From the NCBI RefSeq assembly GCF_003003845.1, contig NZ_PVWO01000005.1:1-38337 (forward strand): DNA of 38,337 nt, given 5' to 3'. Position 1 is the first letter of the stretch, and every line of letters starts with the position of its first letter. The stretch comes from Chamaesiphon polymorphus CCALA 037. GTDB lineage: Bacteria; Cyanobacteriota; Cyanobacteriia; Cyanobacteriales; Chamaesiphonaceae. Below are positions 18,205 through 38,210 of the stretch, one piece after another. The translations under genes and the position numbers were made by a program. The notes below the pieces were generated by a model that did no database searches, had not been told where the DNA came from, and was given only the letters and a program-made list of their open reading frames with translations.

Positions 18205-18267
18205 GTATCAAATCAAATCGGATTGTTATATGATATTAATAAATACTATTAAGATTTATTAATTATT

Positions 18268-18873: not shown

Positions 18874-18904
18874 TAGTCGATAGTCGATCGTTGATAGTCG
18901 ATCG
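18870..18904 (+). repeat. Heptamer array (TTGATAG/TCGATCG) over chorismate lyase stop
   Basis: Five units, TTGATAG, TCGATAG, TCGATCG, TTGATAG and TCGATCG. The stop codon TGA (18871-18873) lies in the first unit. It faces the array at 18975-19002 of the convergent gene. Confidence 0.85.
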
Positions 18905-18974
18905 TTATATTAATAGATTATTATTATATTACTTACTTGGATAATAAAAGATATCTAAATTCAGCAACACAAAA

Positions 18975-19002
18975 CTATCCACTATTCACTATTCACTATC
19001 CA
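18975..19002 (-). repeat. Heptamer array after RibD-C-like gene
   Basis: On the minus strand the TAG stop continues directly as TGGATAG, TGAATAG, TGAATAG and TGGATAG. Confidence 0.88.
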
Positions 19003-19674
19003 CTACTTTTGAACTTGATAATGTAAAAACAGTTCTTGTTCGACTCGATCGAGACTTAATAGTGTTAATTTGGGCGCATTATCTGGCGTGAACCCAGCTC
19101 CAGATACAGGCGAAGGTGCGTCGCTACCACCATAGATCGTCGGGCAAACAGTCAACCATAACTCATCGATAAAATTAGCAGCAAATAAACTTGCGGCTAG
19201 TTCCGAGCCGCCCAAGAAACAGAGATTTTTGATGTCTAATTCTACTAATTTCGATTTAACTGCTTGCCAGTCGATATCTTTGCCATCGGCTGTTTCACAG
19301 ATGAGAATGTTACTAAAACTATCCCGATTTTGCCAATCTTTAGCTCCCTCAGTGGTCGTCAATAACCACCGATCGATCGGTTGACTGAAGAACGGTAACC
19401 CAGCATCAATTTTACCACTGCGAGAAGCAATTAGTTGTGGTGGTTGAGTTGGTAATCCGCGATCGATTCTAGCTCTAATTAACTCTGGTTTTTGGACTAA
19501 GACGACACTACCACCATCGCCCAGGGTACCACTACCGACTAAGATTAAATCCGATAGAGCAATCTGTTCTTCGAGGTGTGCCGAATCTCGCTCGGAGCTA
19601 AATGTCGGTGGCGATTTCGTGGTATCAGAAATTTTACCATCGGCAGTCATGGCGAGCACGAGAGTTGTTTTCAT
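19003..19674 (-). CDS. RibD C-terminal/DHFR-fold reductase
   Basis: A 223-residue protein of the RibD_C family (dihydrofolate-reductase-like fold). N-terminal strand TLVLAMTADGKISD, DLILVGSGTLGDGG and the NADPH-binding strand LCFLGGSELAASLFAANFIDELWLTVCPTIYGG are typical of pyrimidine reductases without the deaminase half. It could serve riboflavin synthesis (reduction of diaminohydroxyribosylaminopyrimidinone phosphate) or be a general pteridine/flavin-related reductase; the substrate is not readable. Start ATG at 19674. It is separated from the upstream sds gene by an inverted-repeat element. Confidence 0.82.
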   Translation of the reverse strand: MKTTLVLAMTADGKISDTTKSPPTFSSERDSAHLEEQIALSDLILVGSGTLGDGGSVVLVQKPELIRARIDRGLPTQPPQLIASRSGKIDAGLPFFSQPIDRWLLTTTEGAKDWQNRDSFSNILICETADGKDIDWQAVKSKLVELDIKNLCFLGGSELAASLFAANFIDELWLTVCPTIYGGSDAPSPVSGAGFTPDNAPKLTLLSLDRVEQELFLHYQVQK

Positions 19675-19690
19675 GGATGGCTTAATTTAA

Positions 19691-19955
19691 ATTAATTGAT
19701 AATTGATAATTGATAATTAGGTTATTAGTATGGAAATTTAAACCTGTTATCGGTCTTCATCGATCGAATGTGAATATAGTAGGGTAGATAGACTAAATTT
19801 AATCCAAACAGAAGTTTAAATCCCCACCTAAACGGTAAATTATTTTTAGGGCGCGGTTTTCCTAGTGCAGCCATGCGGAGTAAACCTCCGCATGGCTGCA
19901 TCTGCTAAATTTAAATCTTAAAGAGCTAATTATCAATTATCAATTATCAATTAAT
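19691..19955. repeat. 265-bp element with perfect 30-bp inverted repeats and central hairpin
   Basis: Bases 19691-19720 and 19926-19955 are exact reverse complements (each made of three TTGATAA heptamers with flanks). The right arm includes the sds stop codon (complement 19951-19953). The 205-base interior has no gene but holds a hairpin. The layout recalls a miniature inverted-repeat element, but heptamer expansion in opposite directions could give the same result. I see no convincing target-site duplication. Confidence 0.85.
19866..19900. terminator. 15-bp perfect hairpin downstream of sds
   Basis: Left arm TGCAGCCATGCGGAG, loop TAAAC, right arm CTCCGCATGGCTGCA. It lies about 50 bases beyond the sds stop on the minus strand and probably ends that transcript. 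Neither side has a T-tract, so a Rho-independent terminator in the strict sense is not shown. Confidence 0.6.
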
Positions 19956-20922
19956 ATAGCCTTTTCAAGACATAATCCGTGAGATCGAATAAGGCTTGGC
20001 GTGAATCCGAAGGTGACAAACCACTTATCTGCGCCAGAGCTAACTGCGCGTGATGCTTGGCAAGTTCGCGAGATTTGGCAATTCCGTCGCTACTTCTGAC
20101 TAAACTCAGAGCTGTGGTTAATGCTGCCCCATCTTCAAACTCGGTGGCAATTAAGTCTACAAGTTGCGGATATTCTTGCATCGCATACAGTGTCGGTGCG
20201 GTAAGATTGCCACTTGCCAAGTCGGAACCCGCAGGTTTGCCCAGAACTTCATCCGAAGCTGTAAAGTCGAGAATATCGTCAACAATTTGGAACGCTAGTC
20301 CTAAATTGCGTCCGTATAGATATAATTGCTCGCACGTCGCAGTCGATGCGTCGCTGAGTAAGCCAGCAGCTTTGGCACTATTAGCCAGCAGCGAGGCCGT
20401 TTTATAATAACTTTTCTCTAGATAGGCTTCGATCGAAAAGTCCGTTTCAAATTGATTCAATCCTTGCTGAATTTCACCTTCAGCTAAGTCCATAATCACC
20501 TGTGAGAGCAGTTTGACCACTTCGAGGTTATCTAGGTTAGCCAGATACCACGAGGACTGTGCAAAGAGGAAATCTCCGGCAAGGACGGCAATCCGATTGT
20601 CAAACAGACTGTGAACCGTAGGTACGCCCCTGCGGGTATCGGCAGTATCGACCACATCATCGTGGACGAGACTAGCCGTGTGGATCATTTCGGTGATTTC
20701 GGCGAGGCGACGGTGGCGCGGGGTAATTTCTTCCCCTGGCATCGTCGCACGGGCAATCAGCAGCACGATTGCTGGGCGGACGCGCTTGCCACCAGCCCCG
20801 AATAAATGTTCGGCGGCTGCGTATAAAATTGGGTGGCGGGCACCGACTAGATTTTTGAGGTTCTCCGTCAAAACTTGCAAGTCAGCTTCAACAGGAGTAA
20901 ATACGGATTTCACTGAGGTCAT
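19951..20922 (-). CDS. sds: Solanesyl diphosphate synthase (plastoquinone side chain)
   Basis: A 323-residue all-alpha trans-prenyltransferase. First Asp-rich motif in LVHDDVVDTADTRRG, second in FQIVDDILDFT, plus GGKRVRPAIVLL and the GKPAGSDLASGNLTAPTLYAM segment. Two small residues (Ala, Ser) upstream of the first motif fit a long-chain product. The sequence agrees with the cyanobacterial Sds type that makes the C45 tail of plastoquinone-9, rather than with GGPP synthase CrtE, which lacks the VPTVHSLF element. It follows murI in the widespread order amiC-murI-sds. Its stop lies in an inverted heptamer repeat. Confidence 0.9.
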   Translation of the reverse strand: MTSVKSVFTPVEADLQVLTENLKNLVGARHPILYAAAEHLFGAGGKRVRPAIVLLIARATMPGEEITPRHRRLAEITEMIHTASLVHDDVVDTADTRRGVPTVHSLFDNRIAVLAGDFLFAQSSWYLANLDNLEVVKLLSQVIMDLAEGEIQQGLNQFETDFSIEAYLEKSYYKTASLLANSAKAAGLLSDASTATCEQLYLYGRNLGLAFQIVDDILDFTASDEVLGKPAGSDLASGNLTAPTLYAMQEYPQLVDLIATEFEDGAALTTALSLVRSSDGIAKSRELAKHHAQLALAQISGLSPSDSRQALFDLTDYVLKRLY

Positions 20923-21062
20923 CGATCGAGCGGCTCAGAGGATGAGTTTACGAAAGTTTACATATATTCTAAGCTATTTTCCCTCTACATAGGGAATTGG
21001 CGAGAATGGATTGGCTTTCGGGGTTGTTTGAGAAGGCGGTAAAATAGCTGCTCGTCAGAGTT

Positions 21063-21923
21063 CTAGCCAATATCGAGCGGTTCGGAAACTGCTACATTCG
21101 AGAGGGCGATCTGGCGAACATCGGGCATAGTTGGCAGCCATTGGGCAGCAATGTGCGTAAATTGTGCGGGTTCTCCACTGACGAAAAATTCAGTGGGCAG
21201 GGATCTGCCGTGGTTTTGAATGCCGAGGACTTGAAGTTCTTTAGCAGCGGCAGCAACTACAGCTACAGCAGGGTTGACAAATTGGACGTTTGGGGGGACG
21301 AATTGCCGAAATACTGGTTCGAGGTGCGGATAGTGGGTGCAGCCGTAGACTAGAGTATCGATCGATCGATCGAGTAATGGTTGAAGATATTCTTTGGCAA
21401 TCGCGAGGGTCTGTGGCTCGGCGATGCGGTTATTTTCGACGATGGGGACGAATTCTGGGCAGGCAACTTGCCATACTTCTGCCTGGGGGTTGGCTTCGCG
21501 AATTGCATGGAGATAGGCATTGCTGTTGACTGTGGCTGGCGTGGCAATGACCCCGATCCTTCGTCCGTAACGCGCGGCGGTTCTAGCTCCAGGTAAAATC
21601 ACGCCCAAAATCGGTAAATCGTATTCCGCACGAACGGTTTCGAGCGCGAGTGCAGAACTGGTATTGCAAGCCATGATGGCCATTTTGACCTGCTGCGCGA
21701 CCATCCAATCTAGAGTTTGGCGGGTAAATTGTAAAATTTCGGTTGCAGTACGGGTGCCATACGGAACTCGCGCTGTATCCCCAAAATACAAGACTGACTC
21801 TTGGGGAAGTTGGCGGTAGATTTCTTGCAAGACAGTTAACCCCCCCACGCCACTATCAAAGACACCAATACGATCGATTGCATTTGAGTGGATCTTGGGG
21901 GCAAAAGTGAATCGGTCTTGCAT
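21063..21923 (-). CDS. murI: Glutamate racemase MurI
   Basis: A 286-residue cofactor-independent racemase supplying D-Glu for peptidoglycan. N-terminal GVFDSGVGGLTVL with the conserved Asp-Ser, catalytic Cys in MACNTSSA (about 84-91) and second catalytic Cys in VYGCTHYPHLEP (about 195). The usual YFGDTARVPYG motif is present. Start ATG at 21923, 44 bases after the amiC stop. It is part of the amidase-murI-sds series. Confidence 0.96.
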   Translation of the reverse strand: MQDRFTFAPKIHSNAIDRIGVFDSGVGGLTVLQEIYRQLPQESVLYFGDTARVPYGTRTATEILQFTRQTLDWMVAQQVKMAIMACNTSSALALETVRAEYDLPILGVILPGARTAARYGRRIGVIATPATVNSNAYLHAIREANPQAEVWQVACPEFVPIVENNRIAEPQTLAIAKEYLQPLLDRSIDTLVYGCTHYPHLEPVFRQFVPPNVQFVNPAVAVVAAAAKELQVLGIQNHGRSLPTEFFVSGEPAQFTHIAAQWLPTMPDVRQIALSNVAVSEPLDIG

Positions 21924-21967
21924 ATTAGTAGAGAAAAATCTAGTAAAGATAAGTGGTTTATCGAAAC

Positions 21968-23452
21968 TTAGTTACGATCCTTAACGTACTGGATAATTCC
22001 CTTGGCAATAGCTTCAGCCATTACTTTTTGATAATCATCACGACGCAGACGTGCAGATTCCTCTGCGCTAGTCAAATAACCAGTTTCGACTAGAATAGCG
22101 GGGATGGTCGCTTTGCGCAAGACTAGAAACCGTGCCGAGCGAACGCGGCGATCGTTTAGATAAAAGCCATTTTTGTTGACATGATCTACTACCGTTCTGT
22201 GAACGGTCTCGGCCAAGGATTGACCGATATTGTAATGATATGTTTCCAAACCATTGACATCGGGACGATTCTCGATCGAGTTGGCATGAATGCTGATAAA
22301 AATTGTCGCTCCTGCTTCTCTAGCGATCGAGACTCGTTCGTCCAAGCCGACATAGTTGTCACCAGTGCGGGTCATTTTGACTGCTATGCCCTGTTTTTCG
22401 AGAATTTCGGCAACTCGTCTGGCAACTGGCATAATCACGTCTACTTCGCGCAAACCGCCCAATCCGATGGCACCCGGATCTCGGCCACCGTGTCCGGGGT
22501 CGAGCATCACTAACACTCTGCCACTACTCGGTCTGGCGGCGGGTGAAGTATCCTGCTTGGGCGTGGGACGATATGTTGTCGTCTGTGTTTTGGGGACAGT
22601 AATCGTTATTGCTTCTGGCTGCGGACGAACGGCAATCCGACTGGGAGAAATCGGTTGTAAATACACCCAACGGCTATCTAGATATTGGCGGACGATATCA
22701 ACTTTCACACCATCGGCACGGCGGACGAGGACGATCAGATCGTCACCTTGCGCGCTCACAGTAAGGTACCGTTGGGACTCCTTAGGAATTTGGTAAGCAG
22801 TGGCCAATTTAGCATTGGGAATGGTCACCCGAAAGCTACCAGCGCGCTCGTCCCAGATGGTAGTGTATTTGAGTTGCATCCTACTTTGGCGATCGGCTTG
22901 TACCAAAATGCCCGTCCGCGTCGGATCGATGGCGATATAATTGACCGACGAGATCGCTGTATTGACCGCGACCTTGGGGCGAATTGGTTGGGCGACGACA
23001 ACTTGACCGTTTTCATTAAACACCCCTACAGGCCCGACAGGCGCGCCTCGTGGAAAAGACTTGAGTGGTTGAGGGGTCGGGAGTTGAATCGACCACTGCT
23101 TGCTATTACTAGCTTGAATGAGAATTTGTTGCGGGTCGATCGTATAGTCAGGATCGAGTTCTAAAACCATCCGCGTGCGATCGGTATCGAATTGACCCAC
23201 TCGCAATGACTTGATGCCATTACCGAGCAACTGCGAAGATGTGGGCTGATTGAGGCGCGTATCTGGCAGATCGACGATCAATCTACTGGGATTAGCCAGC
23301 ATTTGAGCTTCAGGTTTCACTGCCGAATTCGTACTAAAGTCAATGCGATTTTCGGTCGCATTAAATTGCCACGACACCATTTCTGCTGCTGTCGCTGGCA
23401 GTGATACCATTACGAAACTAGAAATACTGGGTAATAACCAGTTGTATCTCAC
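21968..23452 (-). CDS. amiC: N-acetylmuramoyl-L-alanine amidase with AMIN domain (AmiC type)
   Basis: A 494-residue periplasmic amidase. It has a signal peptide (about 1-22), an N-terminal AMIN domain (about 25-135; RLIVDLP, LRVGQFDTDRTRMVLEL), a linker with a second AMIN-like stretch, and a C-terminal Amidase_3 domain (about 310-490). Its zinc ligands are in DPGHGG, REVD and SIHANS, and the catalytic Glu in ETGYLTS. It cuts septal peptidoglycan, which in filamentous cyanobacteria includes the septal nanopores. The start is GTG at 23452 with AGGAGT nine bases upstream. It lies 23 bases after an AMIN-only paralogue and probably shares its mRNA. Confidence 0.93.
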   Translation of the reverse strand: MRYNWLLPSISSFVMVSLPATAAEMVSWQFNATENRIDFSTNSAVKPEAQMLANPSRLIVDLPDTRLNQPTSSQLLGNGIKSLRVGQFDTDRTRMVLELDPDYTIDPQQILIQASNSKQWSIQLPTPQPLKSFPRGAPVGPVGVFNENGQVVVAQPIRPKVAVNTAISSVNYIAIDPTRTGILVQADRQSRMQLKYTTIWDERAGSFRVTIPNAKLATAYQIPKESQRYLTVSAQGDDLIVLVRRADGVKVDIVRQYLDSRWVYLQPISPSRIAVRPQPEAITITVPKTQTTTYRPTPKQDTSPAARPSSGRVLVMLDPGHGGRDPGAIGLGGLREVDVIMPVARRVAEILEKQGIAVKMTRTGDNYVGLDERVSIAREAGATIFISIHANSIENRPDVNGLETYHYNIGQSLAETVHRTVVDHVNKNGFYLNDRRVRSARFLVLRKATIPAILVETGYLTSAEESARLRRDDYQKVMAEAIAKGIIQYVKDRN

Positions 23453-23475
23453 AATACTTAACTCCTATGATGGGA

Positions 23476-23913
23476 CTATCGGGGTAAACTCGAGCGTGGC
23501 GACAAAGTTGGTAATGTTGTCGATCCGCGCTCGGGGACTGGAATAGTTACATACCAATCGATCGGATTTTCGCCCGTAAATTGTACTCGCTTGGGGTTGA
23601 GAGTATACCCAGGTTGTAGCTCTAAGACTATCCTAGTCGTATTACTGTCAAATTGCCCAACACGTAACGATCGAAAGTTACCTGACAACCGTTGAGTCAC
23701 TGTAGGCTTGGGAAAACTAATTCCTGGCAGATCGACTACCAGCCGAGTTGGATTGAATAGCATGACAGATTTGGGTTGAACCCCCGCATCGGTCTTGAAA
23801 TCTAACCTATTTCTACTCGCATCAAATTTCCATGATGCCAATTGGCCTGCATCCGCAGGGATTGCGGCCAGACAGAAGCTAAAAACACTAACCAATACAA
23901 ACTGAAACTTCAC
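23476..23913 (-). CDS. AMIN-domain-only secreted protein
   Basis: A 145-residue protein with a signal peptide (cleavage near ADAGQ) and one AMIN domain: ASWKFDASRNRLDFKT, RLVVDLPG, FRSLRVGQFDSNTTRIVLELQPGY. It is clearly related to the N-terminus of the amidase downstream, but it ends after the AMIN domain in a short Ser/Pro-rich tail. Many cyanobacteria carry two amiC genes in tandem; here the first copy has no catalytic domain. There is no amidase sequence in another frame in the 23 bases before amiC, so a clean loss or a dedicated binding protein is more likely than a recent frameshift. It may bind peptidoglycan and guide or restrain AmiC. Confidence 0.83.
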   Translation of the reverse strand: MKFQFVLVSVFSFCLAAIPADAGQLASWKFDASRNRLDFKTDAGVQPKSVMLFNPTRLVVDLPGISFPKPTVTQRLSGNFRSLRVGQFDSNTTRIVLELQPGYTLNPKRVQFTGENPIDWYVTIPVPERGSTTLPTLSPRSSLPR

Positions 23914-24749
23914 AATATTTCATCCTTAACAGTGGAATCGATGCTACAACTATCGCTCTGATGCCGTTGCTCTAAAACGGAGGCATTCGCTGTTGTGGTC
24001 AGAACTCACCAACGCTTTGCGATAAACGTCCGTACTCCCGTAACGGTAGCTTAGAGTCGATTCTCCTCTATAAAGAGGGTCGATCGACGACTACTGGGGA
24101 TTATTTTAAGATGAATCTACATATCGTATTGTTGCTGTTTGCTGCGAAAAATTAACACTTTGGACTCTATGGTAAATTACCATAAATTTGGTCTTTGGGG
24201 CTAAATTTAAGCTGCAAACTCATCTGGCATCAATTTCAAGCTGCTGTAGTAGCGACAACGCTAGCGAACGTGGATGATGTCACTACTCTCTTTTTGGCAC
24301 TTAATTTCGCTCGGTTGCCAATACTACTTTATAGATACTCTCTTGCTACTGGTGACTGCCAAATCGATCGAGTAGTTCCAAATCGACCCTAGTGCCTCAA
24401 TACTAATTATATAATTCCCGCTTTTTGAACCAGATCGGCCAAGTGGAGACTTTTGACTCAATCTACTTACCTTCGGCGTTCGAGTAAGTCAAATAGGGGC
24501 AAATGAGGGCATATTTAACTAGACCCGACCCAATAATGAAGGTATCGGCCTGTGAATTCACGATCGTCAGAGCGCATGTGCGGGGATGCTGAGACTTGCC
24601 ATTGGCTATAAATCTCAGTTTTGGCTAGATTGCTAACAGAGCTTTGCCCCTGCTCTGGCGATCGAAATTCAGATCCCGACATTCTACCGGAAAACTTCAC
24701 GCCCGGATGTATCTAACAATAGACTGACATCAAAGCGATCGCAACATCT
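23914..24749. other. 836-base region without a convincing gene
   Basis: This divergent spacer separates the AMIN/amiC operon from the GHL10 protein. Two short reading frames (24195-24392 plus, 24515-24700 minus) have no recognisable motifs. The minus-side promoter should lie near 23914-24100, where a small hairpin (CCTCTATAAAGAGG) is seen at 24066-24079. At 24467-24493 ACTTAC and GTAAGT face each other around a 13-base loop. I cannot identify a tRNA or riboswitch. Confidence 0.5.
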
Positions 24750-26054
24750 ATGAAAACTAAGCAAAATTCGGGCTGTGGCTGTTTGAAGATCCCATTGTCA
24801 GTTATCATCGCTATCCTTGGCGGTAGCTATTGGTGGTTGATTTACCAAGGTAATCTTCAGAAGATCGTCCAACTCTTTCCCGCCGTCCGAATGCCAGATT
24901 CAGTTGCAGTATTATTACCCAAAGGATCTCGCGCTCTTCAAGCTACACCAACAGCCACGCCGATAGCGATACCATCGCCGCAGGTTGCTACTGGAAACTG
25001 TATCGACAAAGGCTGCACGAATACTCAGCCGCAGCCGACAGCAGCAGTTAAATCGGTGAAAGTTACGCCACCGACGGCAACTACCTCAGCTACACCCGCA
25101 GCACCCCCTGCTGCTCCGCAAACCGCTTGGGAGAAAAAAGCCATTCGTGGGATTTATTTGAGCCGCTATCAGGTAACTAATAACGCCGACGAACAGACGA
25201 TTCGCAAACGAGTTCGTTACTATAAATCTCAAGGGATTAATACGATTATTCATGGCGTTTGGGGTAACGGCTGCACGATGTATAACAGTGAAGTTATGCA
25301 GCAAATATTAGGTGCCAAAAGTTGTCCCAATCAGTTTCAAGATAAGTGGTTAGATTGGACGATCGATGAAGCGCACAAGCAGGGAATGCAGGTTCACGCT
25401 TATTTTGAGAAGGGTATTAAAATCGATAAAAATAGTCCGATTTTCGATCGAGCGATCGCTAAAAAATGGATCGTGCCTGGTGTCGATCGTACTTATGCCA
25501 AAGTCGAACATTATGTCTTAGATGTTGAAGTGCCAGAAGTTGCCAATCTCTTTAAAAAAATGTTGGCAGAATTCGTAACTAAATATCCGCAAATCGATGC
25601 CGTCCAGTGGGATGACTATCTGGGATATCATGCCGAACTACCAGGTAAAGTAGACAGAACCGCAAGTTTGACTAAGTTTGTCAGCGAGATGATAAGCGAT
25701 ATGAAAGCCGCTAATCCACGCGTGAAATTCGATCTTTGCCATCATAATCCCTACTGGGCAAAACGTTATTTTGCTGCCGATTGGGAGAAATGGAAGGTCG
25801 ATCGGGTCTTTATTCAAAATTATAACGATAAGAATTTCCAGGAAGAACTAAACTACGCGGTTAATTATGCCGGGGTGGCAATTCTCGATAGTCAATTGCC
25901 GCGCTTTAAAGAATTGGTAGACAATCCCAAAATTAAAAGTATCCTAATTTTCCCTCTAGATGGAAAACCAGAGGAAACTGCTGCGCGGGTGCAAAAAACT
26001 AATCTGGCAAATGCCGTTAGTACAACAACGGTTCCGAAAGTAGTTGTGAAATAA
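24750..26054 (+). CDS. GHL10-family glycoside-hydrolase-like membrane-anchored protein
   Basis: A 434-residue protein. The N-terminus has two Cys followed by a hydrophobic segment (about 15-32: IPLSVIIAILGGSYWWLIY), which should act as an uncleaved membrane anchor. A Pro/Thr/Ala linker (about 60-125) leads to a TIM-barrel domain of the DUF187/GHL10 (YngK-like) family from about residue 130: RGIYLSRYQV, INTIIHGVWGNG, AHKQGMQVHAYFEKG, VDAVQWDDYLGYHAE-type motif with two Asp, and FDLCHHNPYW. Such enzymes are expected to cleave polysaccharide or glycan strands outside the cytoplasm; the substrate is not known. The gene stands alone. Confidence 0.83.
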   Translation: MKTKQNSGCGCLKIPLSVIIAILGGSYWWLIYQGNLQKIVQLFPAVRMPDSVAVLLPKGSRALQATPTATPIAIPSPQVATGNCIDKGCTNTQPQPTAAVKSVKVTPPTATTSATPAAPPAAPQTAWEKKAIRGIYLSRYQVTNNADEQTIRKRVRYYKSQGINTIIHGVWGNGCTMYNSEVMQQILGAKSCPNQFQDKWLDWTIDEAHKQGMQVHAYFEKGIKIDKNSPIFDRAIAKKWIVPGVDRTYAKVEHYVLDVEVPEVANLFKKMLAEFVTKYPQIDAVQWDDYLGYHAELPGKVDRTASLTKFVSEMISDMKAANPRVKFDLCHHNPYWAKRYFAADWEKWKVDRVFIQNYNDKNFQEELNYAVNYAGVAILDSQLPRFKELVDNPKIKSILIFPLDGKPEETAARVQKTNLANAVSTTTVPKVVVK

Positions 26055-26171
26055 AGTGACAGGATTTTAGATAGATCGATTGAGATCTTTCGGTCGATCG
26101 ATAGCTAGCAACATCTACACTACGCTATGGTTAAAGAATTTGAATAAGCGTCATTCGGCAGAACATCCAAG
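26055..26171 (-). other. Half attC-like site at the cassette end
   Basis: On the minus strand the stop of the XRE gene lies in GCCTAAC (complement 26171-26177), a perfect match to the attC outer core RYYYAAC. It is followed by TTGGATGTTCTGCC, in the place where a spacer and an L box are expected. No matching GTTRRRY core or complementary arm was found in the following 115 bases, so the recombination site appears truncated. Confidence 0.5.
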
Positions 26172-26597
26172 TTAGGCGGCGCGTGTGCGAAGCACTTGAT
26201 ATACGACACCGATAAGCCCGCACGTTAGACCCACCATGGTGCCCACAACGCCAAGAGCTATTCCGGCGTCGCCCGCCGACACTTCCCCGGCAACAAGACT
26301 GGAGTAAATCCCAATATATGCTGATGCGCCGCCTATCAACGCTCCGGCCATGCCAAGTATCGTTCCGCCCTTCAGTCCGAGTAGGAATCGACTCCTTTCT
26401 TCGCGAGTATCGTCCAACGTTTCGAGCCCAACCTCAAACACACAAGCGAGCACCTTCTTCGATTCCAACGAAGCGATTCCGTCAGTCTCGATCCGCTGGA
26501 TTGTGCGCAAACTCAGCCCTGTCGCGCCAGCTAACTCCTCCTGGGACATTGCTCGTTCTCGCCGAAGTTGCCTGATTCGATCGATATCTACCTTCAT
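26172..26597 (-). CDS. XRE-family regulator with two membrane helices (probable gene cassette)
   Basis: A 141-residue protein when started at ATG 26597: an HTH_3 domain (DIDRIRQLRRERAMSQEELAGATGLSLRTIQRIETDG) and a C-terminal part with two hydrophobic helices (GLKGGTILGMAGALIGGASAYIG and GIALGVVGTMVGLTCGLIGVVY). It may be a membrane-tethered regulator. GAGAGG at 26607-26612 is nine bases from this ATG; the open frame reaches 26624. Base use differs from the neighbours: visibly higher GC and almost no CGATCG outside the first codons. It is divergent from an integrase remnant, and its stop codon overlaps an attC core, so it looks like a captured integron cassette, perhaps from a proteobacterium. 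Confidence 0.8.
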   Translation of the reverse strand: MKVDIDRIRQLRRERAMSQEELAGATGLSLRTIQRIETDGIASLESKKVLACVFEVGLETLDDTREERSRFLLGLKGGTILGMAGALIGGASAYIGIYSSLVAGEVSAGDAGIALGVVGTMVGLTCGLIGVVYQVLRTRAA

Positions 26598-26678
26598 TTC
26601 CATTTGCCTCTCCCGTGAATGCAACCTTTTATCCTATTTAAGGTGGATCTGCTGAATTTTTCAAATTATTGAAACATT

Positions 26679-27015
26679 ATGCAAAATCCGCCCAAGAAGC
26701 TCCTAGAGCAAGTTAGAGATGCAATTCGTCTCAAGCATTATTCCTACTTTTGCGATCGTTCAACAAACCACCAGAGTCCATAGGCTGATGCTGCAACTAC
26801 TCTACGGTAGCGGACTTCGCCTTCGCGAATGTATGGAGCTACGAATTAAAGACATCGACTCGATCGTTAATCACTGCTCAACGATCGATAAATTTAAGTT
26901 TGGCTCGTTGGCGAAGCCTCTCAGAATGAGAATCGATCTGACATTGGCAGCCAACGCTACTGTGGGCGGCGTTACTTCACTACTACCTGTAGACAGATTT
27001 TTACAAATTTATTGA
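26679..27015 (+). pseudogene. Decayed integron-type tyrosine recombinase
   Basis: From ATG 26679 the frame reads KLLEQVRDAIRLKHYSY, the hallmark start of integron integrases (IntI). The next integrase-like segment, VHRLMLQLLYGSGLRLRECM and then ELRIKDID (about 26779-26865), is in another frame: the ~100 residues normally between them are deleted and the frame has shifted. This second part contains the box I Arg (GLRLRE). After IKDID the similarity ends in a stretch with a GGCGAAGCC-type repeat (26905-26930), and the HxxR and Tyr boxes are missing. It cannot be active. The orientation, divergent from the cassette gene, is that of a true integron. Confidence 0.75.
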
Positions 27016-27073
27016 ATTACCATTCGTTGGCGTAACCGCGCCGCGAGGTAATCGATTTCGACATGGTTTGTAA

Positions 27074-27958
27074 TTAATTATGAAAAGGTACTGCCAGAAA
27101 TGGTAGAAATGCGATCGAACGCCATGCCCACGATCGCCAACTAGAGTCGAGCGAACGATCTTCTGCTATCGGTTCTAAACAGCTCAATAGTGCTTCAATG
27201 CGTCGATCTAGTCGATCGATCGGGGCAACATGGCCGAACGCCGCACAGATATTATCTGCAAATACGGGCGTACTTTGGACGATCGAGAGTAGGGCTTCGG
27301 CGACTAAGAGGGGATCGGTTTGGGTAGATGCCCATCGATCGGCACGAATTTCGCGTAACATTAACAGTTCTTGCCAGATGGCTTCGGTTTGGGGCAGCCA
27401 ATTGGTAACTTGACGCACCCAGCCCCACCAGAAAAAATACCAGGTATCGCGATAGAGATAATGTGCCCGTTCGTGGGCTAAAACCGCCGCTAAATGCTCC
27501 GAACTCAATGTATCGATTAAAGCAGTGGTAACGACTAATTCCGGCTCCCAGAAGCCAATTTGGGCACTATAGAGCGTCGATAAATCCAGCAACCGCACCT
27601 GAGTATCGTTCACTGTCACGATCGGGTAAGTCCGCACCTGTTGCAGCATTTGCCAGCCAGAGCCAGCCAACTGACACCAAGAAACTGTGGCAAATCCCAA
27701 AAATCCGATCGCCAGATCGTAACTAAACCAATCATTACCCACCCAAACCATCCGTCCGTGCGGCCCCATCCAGACGATCGCGATCGCACTAGTGAATAGT
27801 AATAATGGCGGTAACAAGAAGACCGTCAAAGTGGTTTCCCAGTATTGGTGCAGTCGTTGGGATGGCGCATTGAGCCAGACGGTAGAATCTATCGGCGTCC
27901 AAGCGTAACGCAGTCCCCAAGCGAGGGCAAAAATCGCAGCCATGACAATTAGGTGCAT
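27074..27958 (-). CDS. M56-family membrane metalloprotease, BlaR1/PetP-like
   Basis: A 294-residue protein with membrane helices at about 2-18, 42-64 and 83-103 and a C-terminal hydrophobic end. The zinc protease motif is HERAH in LAAVLAHERAHYLYRD (about 175-190). It has no penicillin-binding sensor domain, so it is not a beta-lactam receptor. Synechocystis has a similar pair, PetP (M56 protease) and PetR (BlaI-type repressor), which controls the copper-dependent plastocyanin/cytochrome c6 switch; the two genes here may be their orthologues. The ATG follows the BlaI stop with no gap, so the two are translated together. Substrate expected: the adjacent BlaI-type repressor. Confidence 0.85.
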   Translation of the reverse strand: MHLIVMAAIFALAWGLRYAWTPIDSTVWLNAPSQRLHQYWETTLTVFLLPPLLLFTSAIAIVWMGPHGRMVWVGNDWFSYDLAIGFLGFATVSWCQLAGSGWQMLQQVRTYPIVTVNDTQVRLLDLSTLYSAQIGFWEPELVVTTALIDTLSSEHLAAVLAHERAHYLYRDTWYFFWWGWVRQVTNWLPQTEAIWQELLMLREIRADRWASTQTDPLLVAEALLSIVQSTPVFADNICAAFGHVAPIDRLDRRIEALLSCLEPIAEDRSLDSSWRSWAWRSIAFLPFLAVPFHN

Positions 27959-28378
27959 TTATCGTTCCTCCTTCGCTTTGCGGATCGCTTGCAGCCGTTG
28001 CGAAATCGCTTCGATCTGTTCGATGCTCGATCGATCGAGACTATCGGCAAAAGCGGCAACGACATCGGGATTGCCTACTGCCAAAAATTGCTGTAACTGT
28101 TCGTAGGCTTGAATTGCTTGCGCCTGTGCCTCGGAAACTAAGGGTTGCCAAACAAAGCTGCGTTCTTGACGATCGCATTGCAACCACCCTTTTTGAGTCA
28201 GGCGGTTGAGTACCGTTGTCACTGAAGCATACGCTAATTCGCGATCGGGGTCGCTGAGGATGCGATCGTGAACGTCTTTGACGGTGACGGCACCTAGTTC
28301 CCAGACGATTTTGAGAATTTCAGTCTCTAATGGCCCCAGCGAAAGCTGTTTGGGTCGATATTTAGGCAGAGAAACCAT
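27959..28378 (-). CDS. BlaI/MecI/CopY-family repressor, PetR-like
   Basis: A 139-residue winged-helix protein: LGPLETEILKIVWELGAVTVKDVHDRI, then ASVTTVLNRLTQKGWLQ (recognition helix region, about 50-66) and a helical dimerisation tail. BlaI-type repressors are inactivated when the partner M56 protease cuts them. The stop codon TAA abuts the ATG of the protease gene. It is divergent from a TonB-dependent receptor with 143 bases between the starts, so that receptor is a possible target, besides its own operon. I found no TACA(N)TGTA-type operator there. Candidate PetR; certainty depends on a tree. Confidence 0.85.
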   Translation of the reverse strand: MVSLPKYRPKQLSLGPLETEILKIVWELGAVTVKDVHDRILSDPDRELAYASVTTVLNRLTQKGWLQCDRQERSFVWQPLVSEAQAQAIQAYEQLQQFLAVGNPDVVAAFADSLDRSSIEQIEAISQRLQAIRKAKEER

Positions 28379-28521
28379 GCAATTTACGGCGAACTTTTCC
28401 TTAGACTAGCGCAACAATTAGCTCCCGATGTTTGACGGCTTGTCTTTTGACACCATCGATCGTCCCATTCACAATCAGTTGAGGGATTAATTCTCTAGTC
28501 CAGCAATAAATCTTAAGATCG

Positions 28522-30552
28522 GTGCTAAATTTTCAACAAATGGGTATGCAGAGCTTGAATAGACACGGTAGCCGCATTGCCATTAGATTATTGACTGCGA
28601 TGTTGCTCGTACTAGGTCATCATTTAATATCGTTCGATCGATGCTTACATGCGGCTCCGCTCGATAATTCTGATAATTCAGCCGAACCAGAACTGACGAT
28701 CGATGTTACGGGAGAACGAAAAGTAAATCTACCCAAATCGACACCAATTTACACGATCGACAGTAAACAAATCGAGCAGCAGGGTGCGAAAAATGTTGCC
28801 GATACTTTAAATAATTTACCTGGCTTTGCGATTAATAATGCTGGTTATGGAGCGGATATTCATACCGGAACTTACTATCGTGGTGCATCGATAAATCAAT
28901 TTATTATTTTGCTCAACGGTCGCCCAATTAGCAATAATATTAATACTTATCACGGTGCAACAGATCTCAATAGCATTCCCGTCGAGGCGATCGATCGGAT
29001 CGAATTATCGAGTGGTGCCAGCAATATTCTCTACGGCTCGGAAACCTTTGGCGGGGTGGTAAATATTATCACAAAAACTTATCGAGGTACTCCAGAAACC
29101 AACGTATCGGCAGAATTAGGCTCTTACGGTCGTCAAAATTATCGTGCTAGTTATACAGGTGGCAGCGATCGATTAAACTACCGCATCGGTATCGAAAAAT
29201 ATCGGATCGACAATAACTATCGCGTCCCCGTTGGAGCTGCCAATCGCGATCCAGTTACGGGAATTCTTACCAATGCCGATACCGATCTTACCAGTTACTC
29301 TGGTAATATTTCGGCCACGATCGACGATCGCAATCGTCTGGATTTCGATGCAATTAAAATTACCAGTCGGCGGGGTTTAGTTTACTTTGGATTTCCCTTT
29401 CAACGCGACAGATTAAATCATGATGCACTAAATGTTGGACTTAATTGGCGATCTCAACTTAGCAGCGATCGTAGCTCCATTCTCAATACCACTCTCAGTT
29501 TTAACCAAGATTATTTTGATACCTTTGGCCCTAGTGGTGCCAATAACCGCAGTGGTACACTCGATACCCAAGCCATAACGGGCAGAATAGACCACAAATG
29601 GCAGACTTCGGCCACAAATACACTACGCTGGGGTGGAGAAATCCAAAATCGTCAACTTAATGGCACGACGATTAGCACAGTTCCCAACCGGATTGCCTTT
29701 AACGAGACTGAAAATCGCAACGTCGTCAATACCGCTCTATTTGCCGTCAATACCTGGAAAGTTACCGATCGCACCGCGATCGATATTGGCTTACGGCAAA
29801 ATTTTAACACCCAGTTTGGTAACTATCTCAATCCCAGTCTCGGCTCCCGCTGGGAAATTAGCCCCAATCTTGCCGTGCGTGCCTCTGTCGCTGGCGCACA
29901 ACGCAATCCCGGACTCGACCAACTCTACCTCTACGATACCGTCCACGGCTGGTTTCCCAACCCCAATCTCAAGCCAGAGACGGGTGCGACTTGGACGGCG
30001 GGAGTCGATCTGGCATTTAGTCCCACTTCGACGGCTACGATTACTTACTTTGGCAGTAATTTAAACGATCGCATCGCCACTCAAGCCATCAGTCCGACTG
30101 TCACTCAGTGGACGAATATCGGACAGGTAAGCACCAATGGTTTAGAAATTGGCTTCAAACAGCAAATAACGCCCCAATGGTCGGCATTTGCCAATTACAC
30201 CTACACCGATGCCAAAATTCAGTCAGGCATAGAGCGAGGCTTGCAACTGTCTCTAGTGCCTTATTCTGTCGCTCAGTTGGGAGTCGGTTATGCCAATCGC
30301 GGCTGGGAAGTGAATCTGCTGACAAACTACAACGCAGGTACGCGCCGTGCTTTCTTTAATAACCCCGGTCAAGTTAGCACCAATTTTGTGCCATCCTTTT
30401 TCAATCTCGATCTAAGCGCGCGCATCCCAATCGGCGAGAATGTCGGACTCAATCTCTATGTCGAGAATCTCGCCGATGTCCAATACGAAAAAGTAAATCG
30501 GATCTACAGTCCCGGTAGAACTTATCGATTTGGTGTTTCGGCTAATTTCTAA
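28522..30552 (+). CDS. TonB-dependent outer-membrane receptor
   Basis: A 676-residue receptor: signal peptide (about 18-45), TonB box-like region near ELTIDVTGERK, plug domain (about 60-175; NVADTLNNLPGF, YYRGASINQFIILLNGRP, IERIELSSG-type motif IDRIELSSGASNILYGSETFGGVV), and a 22-strand barrel ending in Phe (YRFGVSANF). It imports a metal chelate or vitamin through the outer membrane. There is no AMIN domain of the kind found in cyanobacterial siderophore receptors and no ABC importer nearby, so the ligand is open. The BlaI/M56 pair is divergent. The start is GTG at 28522; ATGs at 28540 and 28546 are alternatives. Confidence 0.9.
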   Translation: MLNFQQMGMQSLNRHGSRIAIRLLTAMLLVLGHHLISFDRCLHAAPLDNSDNSAEPELTIDVTGERKVNLPKSTPIYTIDSKQIEQQGAKNVADTLNNLPGFAINNAGYGADIHTGTYYRGASINQFIILLNGRPISNNINTYHGATDLNSIPVEAIDRIELSSGASNILYGSETFGGVVNIITKTYRGTPETNVSAELGSYGRQNYRASYTGGSDRLNYRIGIEKYRIDNNYRVPVGAANRDPVTGILTNADTDLTSYSGNISATIDDRNRLDFDAIKITSRRGLVYFGFPFQRDRLNHDALNVGLNWRSQLSSDRSSILNTTLSFNQDYFDTFGPSGANNRSGTLDTQAITGRIDHKWQTSATNTLRWGGEIQNRQLNGTTISTVPNRIAFNETENRNVVNTALFAVNTWKVTDRTAIDIGLRQNFNTQFGNYLNPSLGSRWEISPNLAVRASVAGAQRNPGLDQLYLYDTVHGWFPNPNLKPETGATWTAGVDLAFSPTSTATITYFGSNLNDRIATQAISPTVTQWTNIGQVSTNGLEIGFKQQITPQWSAFANYTYTDAKIQSGIERGLQLSLVPYSVAQLGVGYANRGWEVNLLTNYNAGTRRAFFNNPGQVSTNFVPSFFNLDLSARIPIGENVGLNLYVENLADVQYEKVNRIYSPGRTYRFGVSANF

Positions 30553-30612
30553 TTAGTAATTTTTCGATCGTTGATGACTGAGCATTCAGTAGGTGGTAGC
30601 AACTAGGGTTAA

Positions 30613-31242
30613 TTACTTTACCTCGGTTGAAAGATGATACCGAACTGTGGAGATAATTGCTGGAATCTGAGAAATTCTCACATTACGATAACTAGATCGA
30701 TGCTCCAGCCCAGAGGCTGCTACAGCAGGTTTGCCAACGGGTAAAACTACTAAATTAGGAGCTTGGTTGCAGCATTTAAGACAACCAGTAGATTTTAAAG
30801 TTACACTGTCATTTAAGTCATGACTATTTAATTGTTCTACCAAAGCCGAGTATATTTCTTTGCCCCCATTATTTTGACATTGTGACTTTTGACAAATCAG
30901 AATCTTCACTTTTGGTTCGTTTTCAGGTGCGGAGATCGTTGGCGTAGCCTCTCCAGCAAAGAATCGATCTGCATTAGCTCGATTCTCTACTGGAAAAGCT
31001 GTGCGATCGACTTTTTCAATTGTAGATGCCTTAAATTTCCAATCTTTTTGAATACCTTCACACCGGAGGCGATCGCCAATAGCTAACTTATAAACCAGCC
31101 CCATCCTCAACTCTTTAGGTACCTTGATGATGACATCTCGCTCGTCGGCGGTTCTCAGGCGCAGATATTTGAGCTTGTAACCATCGATCGCGCAGACTCC
31201 TAAAAATTCCCCTTCTAGATGAAAATAAGTTTCATTAGTCAT
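30613..31242 (-). CDS. Thioredoxin-like [2Fe-2S] ferredoxin-domain protein
   Basis: From ATG 31242 the product has about 209 residues. The N-terminal 75 residues (FHLEGEFLGVCAIDGYKLKYLRLRT, KVPKELR) form a conserved module of unknown role. From about residue 110 a thioredoxin-like [2Fe-2S] domain follows with CQKSQCQNNGG and STGCLKCCNQAPNLVV, giving the Cys-4/5...Cys-x3-Cys pattern. The frame is open further upstream, but that part overlaps the neighbouring gene; the chosen ATG is 12 bases after its stop. Between the two modules the segment FAGEATPTIS is encoded by a GGCGTAGCC repeat (30936-30968). It is likely an electron carrier or Fe-S sensor of iron metabolism. Confidence 0.85.
   Translation of the reverse strand: MTNETYFHLEGEFLGVCAIDGYKLKYLRLRTADERDVIIKVPKELRMGLVYKLAIGDRLRCEGIQKDWKFKASTIEKVDRTAFPVENRANADRFFAGEATPTISAPENEPKVKILICQKSQCQNNGGKEIYSALVEQLNSHDLNDSVTLKSTGCLKCCNQAPNLVVLPVGKPAVAASGLEHRSSYRNVRISQIPAIISTVRYHLSTEVK
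30936..30968. repeat. In-frame GGCGTAGCC repeat in ferredoxin-domain gene
   Basis: CGTTGGCGTAGCCTCTCCAG lies in the linker between the two domains and is translated as part of the protein. It belongs to the same family as 31567-31644. Confidence 0.65.
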
Positions 31243-31253
31243 AAAGTAACTCG

Positions 31254-31556
31254 CTACCATTGTGATTCTCGTTCCGTTCGCGTAGCATTTGCTTGCAAAG
31301 AGGCTACACCAACGGCTTGTAGAGTAAAACAGCGATCTAACCAATCAACCAGTTGACTGCGATCGAGCGATTGCGTCCGAAACACACTCCAAACTTGAAC
31401 GACTGTGGTGGGCGTGTCTACAGTTACCGTCAATGGCTTACCTGTGGAACATTTACAAAAAATTTCTAACTCTTGAAGGCGATGATATATTTGCCAGCGA
31501 TCGCCCCAGGCTGCATCGACGATGAAGATCCAGTCTGAATAATTTACTTGTTCCAT
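31254..31556 (-). CDS. Asr1405/Asl0597-family small protein
   Basis: A 100-residue protein resembling the cyanobacterial Asr1405/Asl0597 family (from memory): WIFIVDAAWGDRWQIYHRLQELEI, CKCSTGKPLTVTVDTP, VVQVWSVFR and LVDWLDRCF. Function unknown. The family usually ends soon after the last of these segments; here about 20 further residues (VGVASLQANATRTERESQW) are encoded by a palindromic repeat (31271-31314), an apparent C-terminal extension. It stands 11 bases upstream of the ferredoxin-domain gene, so the two should be cotranscribed. A second repeat copy precedes its start. Confidence 0.78.
   Translation of the reverse strand: MEQVNYSDWIFIVDAAWGDRWQIYHRLQELEIFCKCSTGKPLTVTVDTPTTVVQVWSVFRTQSLDRSQLVDWLDRCFTLQAVGVASLQANATRTERESQW
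31271..31314. repeat. Palindromic repeat forming a gene's 3' coding end
   Basis: GTTCGCGTAGCATTTGC and GCAAAGAGGCTACACCAAC face each other across two bases. It codes for the last residues of the Asr1405-like protein. Confidence 0.65.
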
Positions 31557-31566
31557 TTTAATTGGG

Positions 31567-31644
31567 ATTCTCGTTTCGCTGGCGTAGCGTTTGCCTGTGC
31601 CTAACGGCAGGCTATCGCCAACGCAAAGAGGCTACGCCAACGAT
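31567..31644. repeat. Complete GGCGTAGCC-family palindromic repeat
   Basis: Outer arms GCTGGCGTAGC and GGCTACGCCAAC face each other, and an inner hairpin GCCTG...CAGGC lies between them. This is the longest copy of the dispersed family whose shorter copies lie in four genes of this window. Confidence 0.75.
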
Positions 31645-31752
31645 GCTTTTGTTTAAATTAAGAATACCTTAAATGATAATTAGAAGCAACAAGCTGGTAT
31701 TTATTCTCACATCGTTCGCTGTCGATTTAAAGGAGAAATCCTTGAAAGTACC

Positions 31753-31787
31753 GATAAAGCTCGATCGCAGGCCGATCGAGCTTTATC
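31753..31787. other. Perfect 15-bp inverted repeat upstream of dps
   Basis: GATAAAGCTCGATCG and CGATCGAGCTTTATC flank the loop CAGGC. It contains two CGATCG hexamers and lies 250 bases before the dps ATG. It may be a terminator, a protein-binding site or a transposon end; no T-tract follows. Confidence 0.6.
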
Positions 31788-32036
31788 AAACTGTGACCAA
31801 ATTTTATCAATAGCGAACTTACTCGATTTGACAAGGGCAACGTTTCACGAACGCTTGATGACATGCTGAATATTAGTCGCAATAAGGTTTACCGCGCACT
31901 TCTCGGCCCAAAATACTCGTGTTAAAATATTGAATCACAGACTACTTTTCTAAATCGATCGGTAGTCGTTAGTTGTCAAAGTATCGAATAGTCTAGTTAA
32001 AAATTTAACCTTTAAAAAATAGAGAGCGAGAAATTT

Positions 32037-32576
32037 ATGACAACAGCACAAAATTTAATGCGTGGATTTGGTGAGGTAGGAGCTAATGTCGTAGGCTTAG
32101 ATCTCACGGTAACTGAGCCAGTTTGTGAGGGATTAAACATCGCTTTGGCAAGTTTTCAGGCTTTGTATTTGCAATATCAAAAACATCACTTTGTTGTAGA
32201 AGGCGCAGAATTTTACTCATTGCACCAGTTTTTTGAAGATGGCTACGAGCAAGCCAAAAGTCACGCTCATGATGTTGCCGAACGGCTAGACGGCTTAGGC
32301 GGAGTCCCTGCTGCGAGTTTTACTAAGTTGGCTGAATTGTGTTGCTTCACTCCTGAAGCTGATGGTGCCTTTAACTGTCGGACGATGTTAGAAAATGATT
32401 TGGTAGGCGAACAAGCAATTATCGCCACGATCCGCTCTCAAGCCAGTCAAGCTGAAAGTTTAGGCGATCGAGCCACACGGTATTTGTACGAACAAATTCT
32501 GCTCAAAACCGAAGAAAGAGCTTATCATATCGGTCACTTTTTAGCTCCCGATACTTTAGTAAGATCTTTTAATTAA
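32037..32576 (+). CDS. dps: Dps-family ferritin-like protein (DpsA type)
   Basis: A 179-residue Dps of the cyanobacterial DpsA type. The four-helix bundle starts with [43 protein letters not shown], and the ferroxidase site at the dimer interface uses His of KHHF, His of SLHQFF and Asp/Glu of [16 protein letters not shown]. The C-terminal [16 protein letters not shown] is typical. It oxidises Fe(II) with peroxide, stores iron and protects DNA. It lies next to the Fe-S protein and TonB receptor genes. The purine-rich GAGAGCGAG before the ATG may serve as ribosome-binding site. A palindromic terminator follows. Confidence 0.93.
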
Positions 32577-32586
32577 TCGCTGAAAT

Positions 32587-32614
32587 TTAGATGGTGGTAA
32601 TTACCACCATCTAA
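32587..32614 (+). terminator. 28-base perfect palindrome after dps
   Basis: Two 14-base arms (TTAGATGGTGGTAA and its complement) meet without a loop, 10 bases after the dps stop. In RNA this folds into a stem of about 12 pairs. An AT-rich stretch with AAATTTTG follows. Confidence 0.7.
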
Positions 32615-33261
32615 CACACATCTAAATAAATTTTGACTACCCATCTAAATCGGGTGGATTTTTAGGTTCTTTCGATCGACCAGATTTTTTGACAGCATCG
32701 GCTACTAGCGATCGTCTGACTTACTTTTGTGCATCTAAATTTAGCGATAGATTTGGCGTAATGGTTTGGTGGCGCGATCGATCGCGGTAACGCTATCAGG
32801 GCAGAAAAGTTAGGAGAATCGATCGATTAAATGCTGTGTCGATCGCCTTTTACGCCTAACCTTGCCGCCGCTGTATTTGCGATCGTTGAGATTAAATAGC
32901 AATAATTTTAAAAATAGCTCCCTCGACTGCTGCCTCTATCTACATCCCAGCTTCCCAACATGTCCGACAAATTAGTCAAGGTGCCCGATCGCCAGTTGCA
33001 GGCTAATACTATAGTACGAGGGATTTACTACAACCCTGAGTGAGAGATTGCACTGCTAAGTTTGATTTATTGTCAAGCGACTAGATAGTAAATAATAATG
33101 AAGCTATCGCCGCGAAAACCCGATCCAGCAACTATTTGCCTTCTTTTTTCTGTAATATAGAAATCGATAAACCTAAGATCTCATTGTCTTGACTGCAAGC
33201 AGTGTGCTTGACAATGGCGATCTCTGCCCCACACTACCGCAGCTCTAGGAGAAGGATCATA
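32615..33261. other. Gene-free region between dps and the histidine kinase
   Basis: About 640 bases without a convincing gene. ATCTAAAT occurs three times (32629-32636, 32644-32651 and about 32732), and a weak hairpin with TTTTT follows the second. A run of CGATCG sites lies at 32780-32885. The kinase promoter is probably near 33040-33190, but no clear boxes stand out. Confidence 0.45.
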
Positions 33262-35190
33262 GTGAGCGATTTTCCAGAGGAAAGGCTATGCCAACGACGA
33301 TCGGTTTTAAGTGAATTACTGCGGCAGATGCCCCAATTGAGATCGCATTTGTATTTTAAATCTTCCCTCACTGCTTTATCGCACGCTATGGAAGATCGGG
33401 TGCTAGCCGGAACGGATCGACCGTTACTGATTGCTAGTTTTCAGCAAGAAAAGTTTTATCGCCAAGAGGCGCATCGCTATCGTCGGTTGGGCGAAATCAG
33501 CGATCAAGTTTACGTGCTGGCTGCCCCAGATACTGAATTTAGCGATCTCGTCAGCGAGTACGATCTAATACCATTCGAGCACACTGATGCGCTGGCTTCA
33601 GAATGGCATCTGGTTGCCATCGGTGCCCAATCCTCGGCGTGCTTGATCTGTCGCGAAAAAATCGTCCCGCCATCGGAGATTCCAGTCTTACCCGAAATCG
33701 ACGCATCCCGCAGATTTGAAGGGATCTGGACATTCGATCGCCAAGTAACGATCGCCGCCGCACATATCTTACTCGATCGCATCAAAGGTTATCGTCCGGA
33801 TCTGGCTGCTAAAATCGCCCAGGCCAAGCAAGAATACCTCGTCGCCGTCCCCACTATCCCCCAAGATCATTCGGCCAGTGCTGACGCCTTCGTGCAGCGA
33901 CTGGTGACATATTTGCAAGCCCGACAATACAAATTGCTCAAAGCTTACCGTTCGATCGAAGAAAAAGAAGAACGCGAACGCCTAGTCAATACAATTACTG
34001 GGGCAATTCGGCGTTCGCTCAACTCAGCAGATATTCTCCAAGTAGCCGGACAAGAGATCGGTAAGGCAACTGGAGTCAGTCGCTGCCTGATCTATCAATA
34101 TCGTAAAGACGATCGAGCTGTGACGATCTCTCATGAATATTTAGCTAATTCCGGAATTAATTCTTTAGTCGGTAAATCTTGGAATCTAGCCGACAATCCG
34201 ATCTTTAAAGAAGTCGTTACCACTCACGAATCGACATCCCTAGCCGAAGTTAGCGTTACCAAAACCTGGCAGCGCACGCTCTCCAGACAGGGCATTAGCG
34301 ACTGGTTAATCGTGCCAGTCCTCCACCAAGATCGGCTCTTAGGCGCGATCGAATTACACCAGCACGAACCTTCACCCTTACCCTGGTCGGACGATACGAT
34401 TAACCTCGTCGAAGCGATCGCCACCCAAATCGGCAGCACCCTGATTCAGGCCGAATCGTACACCAATCTGGAATATCTCAACCAGCAACTCGAAGCACTC
34501 GATCGTACCCGCGCCAATTTAGTTGCCATTACCGGACACGAACTGCGGACGCCACTGTCCACCATTCAAGTCTGTCTGGAAAGTCTCGCCACCGAGCCAG
34601 ATATGTCACTCGAAATGCGGCAAGTGATGCTCAATACCGCCTTGGGCGATGCCGAACGAATGCGAAAGCTCGTGCAAGACTTTTTGACCCTCTCTCAGCT
34701 CGAAAGCGGTCGGATTCAATGGCATCCCGAGCCGCTATCGCTCGAAGAATGCATCGATTTGGCCTTAAGCGGTCTCAATACCCGTCGCTACAATCGAGAT
34801 TTACCCAAAATTATCGTCGATTTGCCCCCCGATCTACCCTTCGTCCGTGCCGATGGCGAATGGTTAGTTGAAGTATTGACAAAATTGCTAGATAATGCGT
34901 GTAAGTTTACCACTGGCAAAGATCGGATCGCGATTCAAGCAGCCAAAACCGAATCGATGCTAGAAGTAATTGTTGCCGATACTGGACGCGGCATCGCCCC
35001 CGAACTACTACAAATGGTCTTCGAGCGGTTTTACCAAGCCGAAGGTTCCTTGCGGCGGACTGCGGGTGGAACTGGTTTGGGATTGGCGATTTGTCGCCAA
35101 ATCGTCAACGGCTGGGGCGGCGAAATTTGGGCAGAGTCTGCGGGCAAAGATTGCGGCAGTCGGTTTCACTTTACCGTGCCATCGATTTAA
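33262..35190 (+). CDS. DICT-GAF sensor histidine kinase
   Basis: Starting at GTG 33262 the product has 642 residues. A DICT sensory domain (about 15-170; LLRQMPQLRSHLYFKSSLTALSHAME, PLLIASFQQEKFYRQEAHRY) is followed by a GAF domain (about 250-425) and a kinase core: HisKA with phospho-acceptor His in TGHELRTPLS and HATPase with N-box LLDNACKFT, G1 DTGRGIAPE and G2 GGTGLGLAI. No membrane helix is seen, so it is a cytoplasmic sensor. The frame is open to 33202, but AAGGA at 33252-33256 lies five bases before the GTG at 33262. No response regulator is adjacent; two phosphatase genes follow. The N-terminal EERLCQRRS comes from a GGCTATGCCAACG repeat. Confidence 0.9.
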   Translation: MSDFPEERLCQRRSVLSELLRQMPQLRSHLYFKSSLTALSHAMEDRVLAGTDRPLLIASFQQEKFYRQEAHRYRRLGEISDQVYVLAAPDTEFSDLVSEYDLIPFEHTDALASEWHLVAIGAQSSACLICREKIVPPSEIPVLPEIDASRRFEGIWTFDRQVTIAAAHILLDRIKGYRPDLAAKIAQAKQEYLVAVPTIPQDHSASADAFVQRLVTYLQARQYKLLKAYRSIEEKEERERLVNTITGAIRRSLNSADILQVAGQEIGKATGVSRCLIYQYRKDDRAVTISHEYLANSGINSLVGKSWNLADNPIFKEVVTTHESTSLAEVSVTKTWQRTLSRQGISDWLIVPVLHQDRLLGAIELHQHEPSPLPWSDDTINLVEAIATQIGSTLIQAESYTNLEYLNQQLEALDRTRANLVAITGHELRTPLSTIQVCLESLATEPDMSLEMRQVMLNTALGDAERMRKLVQDFLTLSQLESGRIQWHPEPLSLEECIDLALSGLNTRRYNRDLPKIIVDLPPDLPFVRADGEWLVEVLTKLLDNACKFTTGKDRIAIQAAKTESMLEVIVADTGRGIAPELLQMVFERFYQAEGSLRRTAGGTGLGLAICRQIVNGWGGEIWAESAGKDCGSRFHFTVPSI

Positions 35191-37413: not shown

Positions 37414-37438
37414 GATATCCTCCAGTACTAAACACTCT

Positions 37439-38197: not shown

Positions 38198-38210
38198 TCG
38201 ACCTCAGTTA

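Follow-up and report, generated by a model that had tools for sequence, protein, structure and literature searches.

Does a small regulator gene lying back to back with scraps of a tyrosine recombinase mark the site of a former integron? Integrons are known mainly from proteobacteria. The locus considered here lies in contig C525 of a 6.09-Mb draft cyanobacterial genome (756 contigs; G000), and the window is the whole stretch of 38,337 nucleotides of this contig that was analysed. An earlier note had read part of it as a dead integron platform with a single fixed cassette. The window very probably does contain such a dead integron, with one cassette fixed by the mechanism proposed below. The recombinase fragments are those of an integron integrase (IntI) that is dead, part of an attI site survives, the adjoining gene is foreign and has an attC core at its stop codon, and a full-length homologue of that gene is of cassette origin. 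In addition, and beyond the earlier note, the relic coincides with a break in synteny and is not isolated, being one of many similar wrecks in the genus. Features of the locus are collected in table 1.

Table 1. Features of the integron relic (positions in the window).
Feature	Position	Strand	Basis
Whole relic segment	26072..27071		non-syntenic kilobase; the blocks on either side lie 1.14 Mb apart in relative G006
Possible attC 5' arm remnant (TTGGATGTTCTGCCGAATGACGC...)	26142..26170	-	inferred only; weak unscored resemblance to sister-locus attC 5' arms
attC R'' core GCCTAAC over stop codon	26171..26177	-	sequence; no GTTRRRY partner left
Cassette gene: XRE-type HTH and two long glycine-rich helices (probably membrane), 143 aa	26172..26603	-	PF01381, 34.7 bits; TAA stop inside attC core
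Ribosome-binding sequence GGGAGAGG of cassette gene	26607..26614	-	sequence
Cassette/attI joint GTTGCAT	26619..26625	-	alignment with relatives; one mismatch from GTTRRRY; within proximal attI repeat
Proximal attI and intI leader, outer attI repeats (~98 bp) missing	26624..26678	+	94% over 124 bp to attI+intI reference
Candidate Pc: TTGAAA (26664-26659), 17 bp, TTAAAT (26641-26636)	26636..26664	-	conserved among aligned attI copies
intI remnant, codons 1-23	26679..26747	+	96% aa identity to G008 IntI; DNA match
intI remnant, codons ~114-151, box I arginine region included	26747..26860	+	DNA identity 89% (G008), 92% (G002)
intI remnant, final codons plus 34 bp of 3' flank	26855..26905	+	86% over 51 bp to G008

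The best reference for the integrase fragments is the intact IntI of another genome of the genus (G008, L047). This protein has 321 residues counted from the aligned methionine and scores 451 bits against TIGR02249 (cut-off 265), which identifies it as an integron-type tyrosine recombinase. The window aligns with the G008 locus in three collinear blocks: 26624-26747 (94% identity), 26747-26860 (89%) and 26855-26905 (86%). The two peptide stretches named in the earlier note, KLLEQVRDAIRLKHYSY and LLYGSGLRLREC..ELRIKDID, are both present and derive from one intI, from codons 1-23 and ~114-151, respectively. A single internal deletion had been assumed between them; with the third block, previously unlisted, there are two, removing codons ~24-113 and ~152-316. 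Only ~1 and ~3 nt of common sequence are found at the joints, which resembles illegitimate deletion. Of the residues that a functional integrase needs (R, K, HxxR and Y), the K, HxxR and Y positions have gone with the deleted codons. The locus is thus a relic and no active integron, and the platform is dead, as had been proposed. The 98-amino-acid ORF at 26719-27015 was rejected as a gene, being a chance read-through of the intI pieces. An origin of the fragments in a Xer or phage tyrosine recombinase, which the earlier note had named as the finding that would overturn its reading, could draw on their generic match to PF00589 in Pfam. It is refuted by the present results and retains practically no probability: NCBIfam ranks IntI (TIGR02249) first with 37.3 bits, against 23.9 bits for XerC, the DNA is 86-94% identical to that of the intact, high-scoring IntI of the same genus, and the attI upstream is conserved. 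A separate and more diverged intI 3' remnant occurs on contig C301 of the same genome (L224:4706-4804; 73% over 33 aa, one stop).

In relatives, attI occupies ~140 bp upstream of intI and consists of four imperfect palindromes (TTAGGCGGAAACTTTCCACCTA and so on), its homology ending at TAATAATAG^TTRRRY in the cassette-side writing. This would possibly be an undescribed attI architecture. The window keeps the inner part only, and the outer repeats carrying the regular crossover are lost; the 41 bp at 26624-26664 are 95% identical to the genus attI (E 1e-11). The earlier note had found neither an attI core nor the second half of attC. The latter is indeed absent; the former survives as the inner part at 26624-26678. 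The joint with the cassette reads GG^TTGCAT and falls in an inner repeat instead of at the usual outer crossover, a point that counts against a dead integron. A regular crossover at 26624 was rejected, since the joint has one mismatch and this inner position. The best-conserved part of attI contains, on the minus strand, TTGAAA-N17-TTAAAT, ~32 nt ahead of the cassette start codon. A strict consensus promoter scan reported no promoter at 26664-26636, because the second hexamer has no A at position 2. This result counts against a Pc, and the element is therefore treated as a candidate only, which may still drive the fixed cassette.

The regulator gene is a single small ORF (likely start ATG at 26603, stop TAA at 26174-26172), divergent from intI and placed as a first cassette would be. 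Gene order and orientation are thus those of intI-attI-cassette, as first suggested. GCCTAAC does lie over the stop (minus strand, 26177-26171), so that the gene ends within R''. Among the 176 stop-to-stop ORFs of at least 60 aa in the window, two have RYYTAAC over the stop, and the coincidence of stop and core is weak taken alone. No GTTRRRY partner for GCCTAAC was found downstream; the attC is incomplete, which again counts against the reading. A scan of the window for paired attC cores returned only two pairs, 434-547 and 37182-37292, both far from the locus and probably due to chance. The claim of a deviating base composition held: GC content is 55.3% in the gene and 45.7% in the window, a value reached by 0.1% of 432-bp windows, and the foreign composition begins at the attI joint.

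Homologues of the regulator are absent from the 60 cyanobacterial genomes searched, the gene's own genome excepted, and the common cyanobacterial context that would have spoken against a cassette was not encountered. Gammaproteobacteria have HTH-domain relatives and a few full-length relatives. Three of the latter align at ~40% identity. Two (L065, L067) lie in contexts without visible attC; the third (L066/L227:7405-7842, genome G139; 39% identity over the full length) is a cassette within a gammaproteobacterial attC array, flanked by an attC at 7206-7301 and the start of the next at 7850. This array (L227, G139 C28:14000-30000) has at least six clear attC sites; the one at L227:3871-3931 is a perfect site of 61 bp. 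Genome G139 yielded no IntI that passes the TIGR02249 cut-off. The G139 cassette gene resembles the window gene in combining an HTH with two glycine-rich helices. It differs in setting: it stands in a run of well-formed attCs, whereas the window copy is single and without a complete attC. Searches with the regulator protein gave no match in viral contigs and matches confined to the HTH part in plasmids; its DNA gave nothing useful in plasmids. An AlphaFold2 model built from a 4-row alignment (mean pLDDT 83.5, pTM 0.50) comprises a four-helix HTH followed by helices 67-104 and 110-142. The two long helices, hydrophobic and rich in glycine, are suggestive of a hairpin in the membrane, and the regulator may act from there.

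The chromosomal setting was compared with that of the relative G006 (chromosome of 6,284,095 bp). Window positions 18209-26071 and 27072-38201 are each collinear with one region of this chromosome, and the relic sits exactly on a synteny breakpoint, since the two regions are 1.14 Mb apart in G006. Directly after the left block G006 has an IS-type transposase gene at the breakpoint (L138:10840), so that the rearrangement may be G006's. In the right block, the G006 gene for an M48 peptidase is followed by diverged attI-type palindromes, which share the AACTATTATT left end (L139 ~9650-9800). The match is weak by BLAST (77% over 53 bp, E 5e-4) and was counted against the dead-integron reading. The M48 gene neighbours an attI-type relic in both window and G006, which suggests that the integron at this locus is older than the species split. 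On the simplest reading, it was probably present before the two species diverged. An Rfam search and a tRNA scan of the window returned no matches.

The 140-bp attI was used as a BLAST query against 11 genomes, and 23 loci were then read. Copies lie at ~20 loci, spread over the genus and a neighbouring one (g2). The window's own genome has three (on C202, on C141 and in the window), G006 five, G007 four, G001 several and g2 two. The loci include C202:1418 (L175) and C141:3300 (L176) of G000; others, in G006, G007, G001, G005 and G009, are among L175-L192. Nearly all start at RYYYAAC|TATTATT, and the first gene pointing away from intI nearly always differs between loci. By-eye sequence assignment of these genes gave a methyltransferase, a GNAT acetyltransferase, HicA/HicB-like and BrnT/BrnA-like pairs, and glycosyltransferase-like and AraC-like genes. 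Several are followed by attC-like sites, as on C141 of G000, where GCATAACAACGCCC...AACGTTAGAC has the stop inside the core. True arrays of paired attCs are present in G009 (L228) and G002 (L048).

Truncation of intI in these copies is strikingly uneven. In 17 of the 18 truncated copies the gene is cut within ~35 codons of its start (homology ends at 145-260 of the reference, with the ATG at 153). Breakage spread uniformly over attI and intI, as the test assumes, would give ~3 early ends in 18 (p 3e-13). Removing one known duplicate leaves 16 of 17, and taking just the longest copy from each genome leaves five of six (p ~5e-4); the copies were found through attI, and their relatedness is only partly removed. 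Shared neighbours connect complete and truncated states. A gpmI gene flanks both the intact intI of G008 and a decayed one on C33 of G001, and a desaturase region is common to the nearly complete intI of G002 and the truncated intI on C26 of G007. These pairs speak for decay in place rather than for a mobile repeat. Several N-terminal-only intI fragments per genome were also seen in other cyanobacterial families (G014, G024, G029, G047 and others), a hint that 5'-biased decay extends beyond one genus.

The dispersal of attI and intI starts could alternatively reflect a self-moving, MITE-like repeat family. There are ~20 copies with a common left end, and most of them end within 145-260 of the reference; full matches number at most five per genome. 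The explanation is nonetheless unlikely. The left joint is the integron crossover and adjoins a different gene each time, with attCs after several; the right ends vary between copies; and unequal loss of intI beside the same neighbours, at the G002/G007 loci and the G008/G001 gpmI loci, is the mark of decay in place. The attI was found neither in PLSDB plasmids nor in phages. Decayed integrons thus account better for the family of loci than a mobile repeat does.

Two further explanations concern the window alone. The XRE gene might be an unrelated horizontal insertion, or a chromosomal gene that has an integron relic next to it by coincidence, with a chance GCCTAAC stop. The missing second attC half is compatible with this, as are a chance frequency of ~1% of ORFs for RYYTAAC over the stop and the lack of visible attC near two of the three full-length relatives. 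Such a coincidence is very unlikely, given that the gene lies, with respect to attI, exactly where a first cassette would lie and in the same direction, like its counterparts at the ~20 sister copies, that the remaining full-length relative does stand as a cassette among attCs, and that the foreign composition sets in at the attI joint. Assembly error is the other concern: in a draft of 756 contigs a multi-copy attI could have joined an XRE gene and an intI remnant from different loci, and the window does unite blocks that G006 holds at a distance of 1.14 Mb. Exact identity with any other attI copy of the same genome extends over 34 bp at most, however, a short stretch on which to base a misjoin. 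In G006, independently, the M48 gene also has an attI-type relic at its side, and the IS-type element there offers a different source for the rearrangement. A chimera is accordingly highly improbable, and a dead integron with one fixed cassette remains the best explanation.

The proposed course of events is as follows. A chromosomal integron of a Chamaesiphon-like lineage would have acquired a proteobacterial-type cassette encoding a regulator of the XRE type, probably anchored in the membrane. Two illegitimate deletions may afterwards have stripped intI of most of its length and, with it, of the catalytic lysine, HxxR and tyrosine positions. With the outer attI repeats and the attC 3' half also lost, the cassette would have no usable excision site. 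The presumed end state is a gene that is fixed, has a ribosome-binding site to itself and lies downstream of the candidate Pc in attI. The gene may be in use and under selection, and the attI promoter may be the reason why attI and the intI start persist. A tentative extension, to which we give rather less than even credence, is that integron loci of the genus decay convergently, keeping attI with its promoter and one cassette while intI is cut early. In this scenario delivery would be one-way, the promoter would be domesticated and many sites would be seeded, by way of an attI architecture not described before.

Related systems are known. In Xanthomonas, intI has been inactivated and cassettes fixed (PMC12444791), and intI pseudogenes make up about a third of intI genes (PMC2426708). 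The window resembles such sedentary chromosomal integrons in its intI-attI-cassette order, in the loss of intI through deletions and frameshifts and in later cassette fixation. Xanthomonas-type integrons occupy one ancestral site; the present loci are cyanobacterial and number many per genome, their intI is cut near the start with attI kept, and their attI is made of four imperfect palindromes. Like CALIN elements or single attCs without integrase, the window has a cassette without a working integrase; unlike them it retains attI and the intI start, and its cassette has the attC R'' core only. Truncated attI sequences occur in cassettes (PMC12901181). Such Delta-attI-type cassettes of mobile integrons share the joining of a truncated attI to cassette genes, but there the attI piece is a recombination site in an active array, whereas here it lies upstream of the gene, in place, beside a dead intI. 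Integrons in Cyanobacteria have been mentioned at phylum level (PMC9668308). The literature searched, with most subscription papers outside the search, barely describes cyanobacterial integrons and yielded no account of this genus or of multi-locus attI wrecks.

The kind of locus is therefore already known; the window is a well-supported new member of it in a poorly described phylum, and the genus-wide pattern is unexpected. A cyanobacterial gene whose family also travels as a gammaproteobacterial cassette suggests that cassettes move between phyla. That attI and the intI start are kept at ~20 dead loci prompts a testable idea on why cassettes outlast their integrases, namely that it pays to keep the promoter but not the recombinase. 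If this is true, integrons would act as one-way delivery devices, the promoter being domesticated along with the captured gene.
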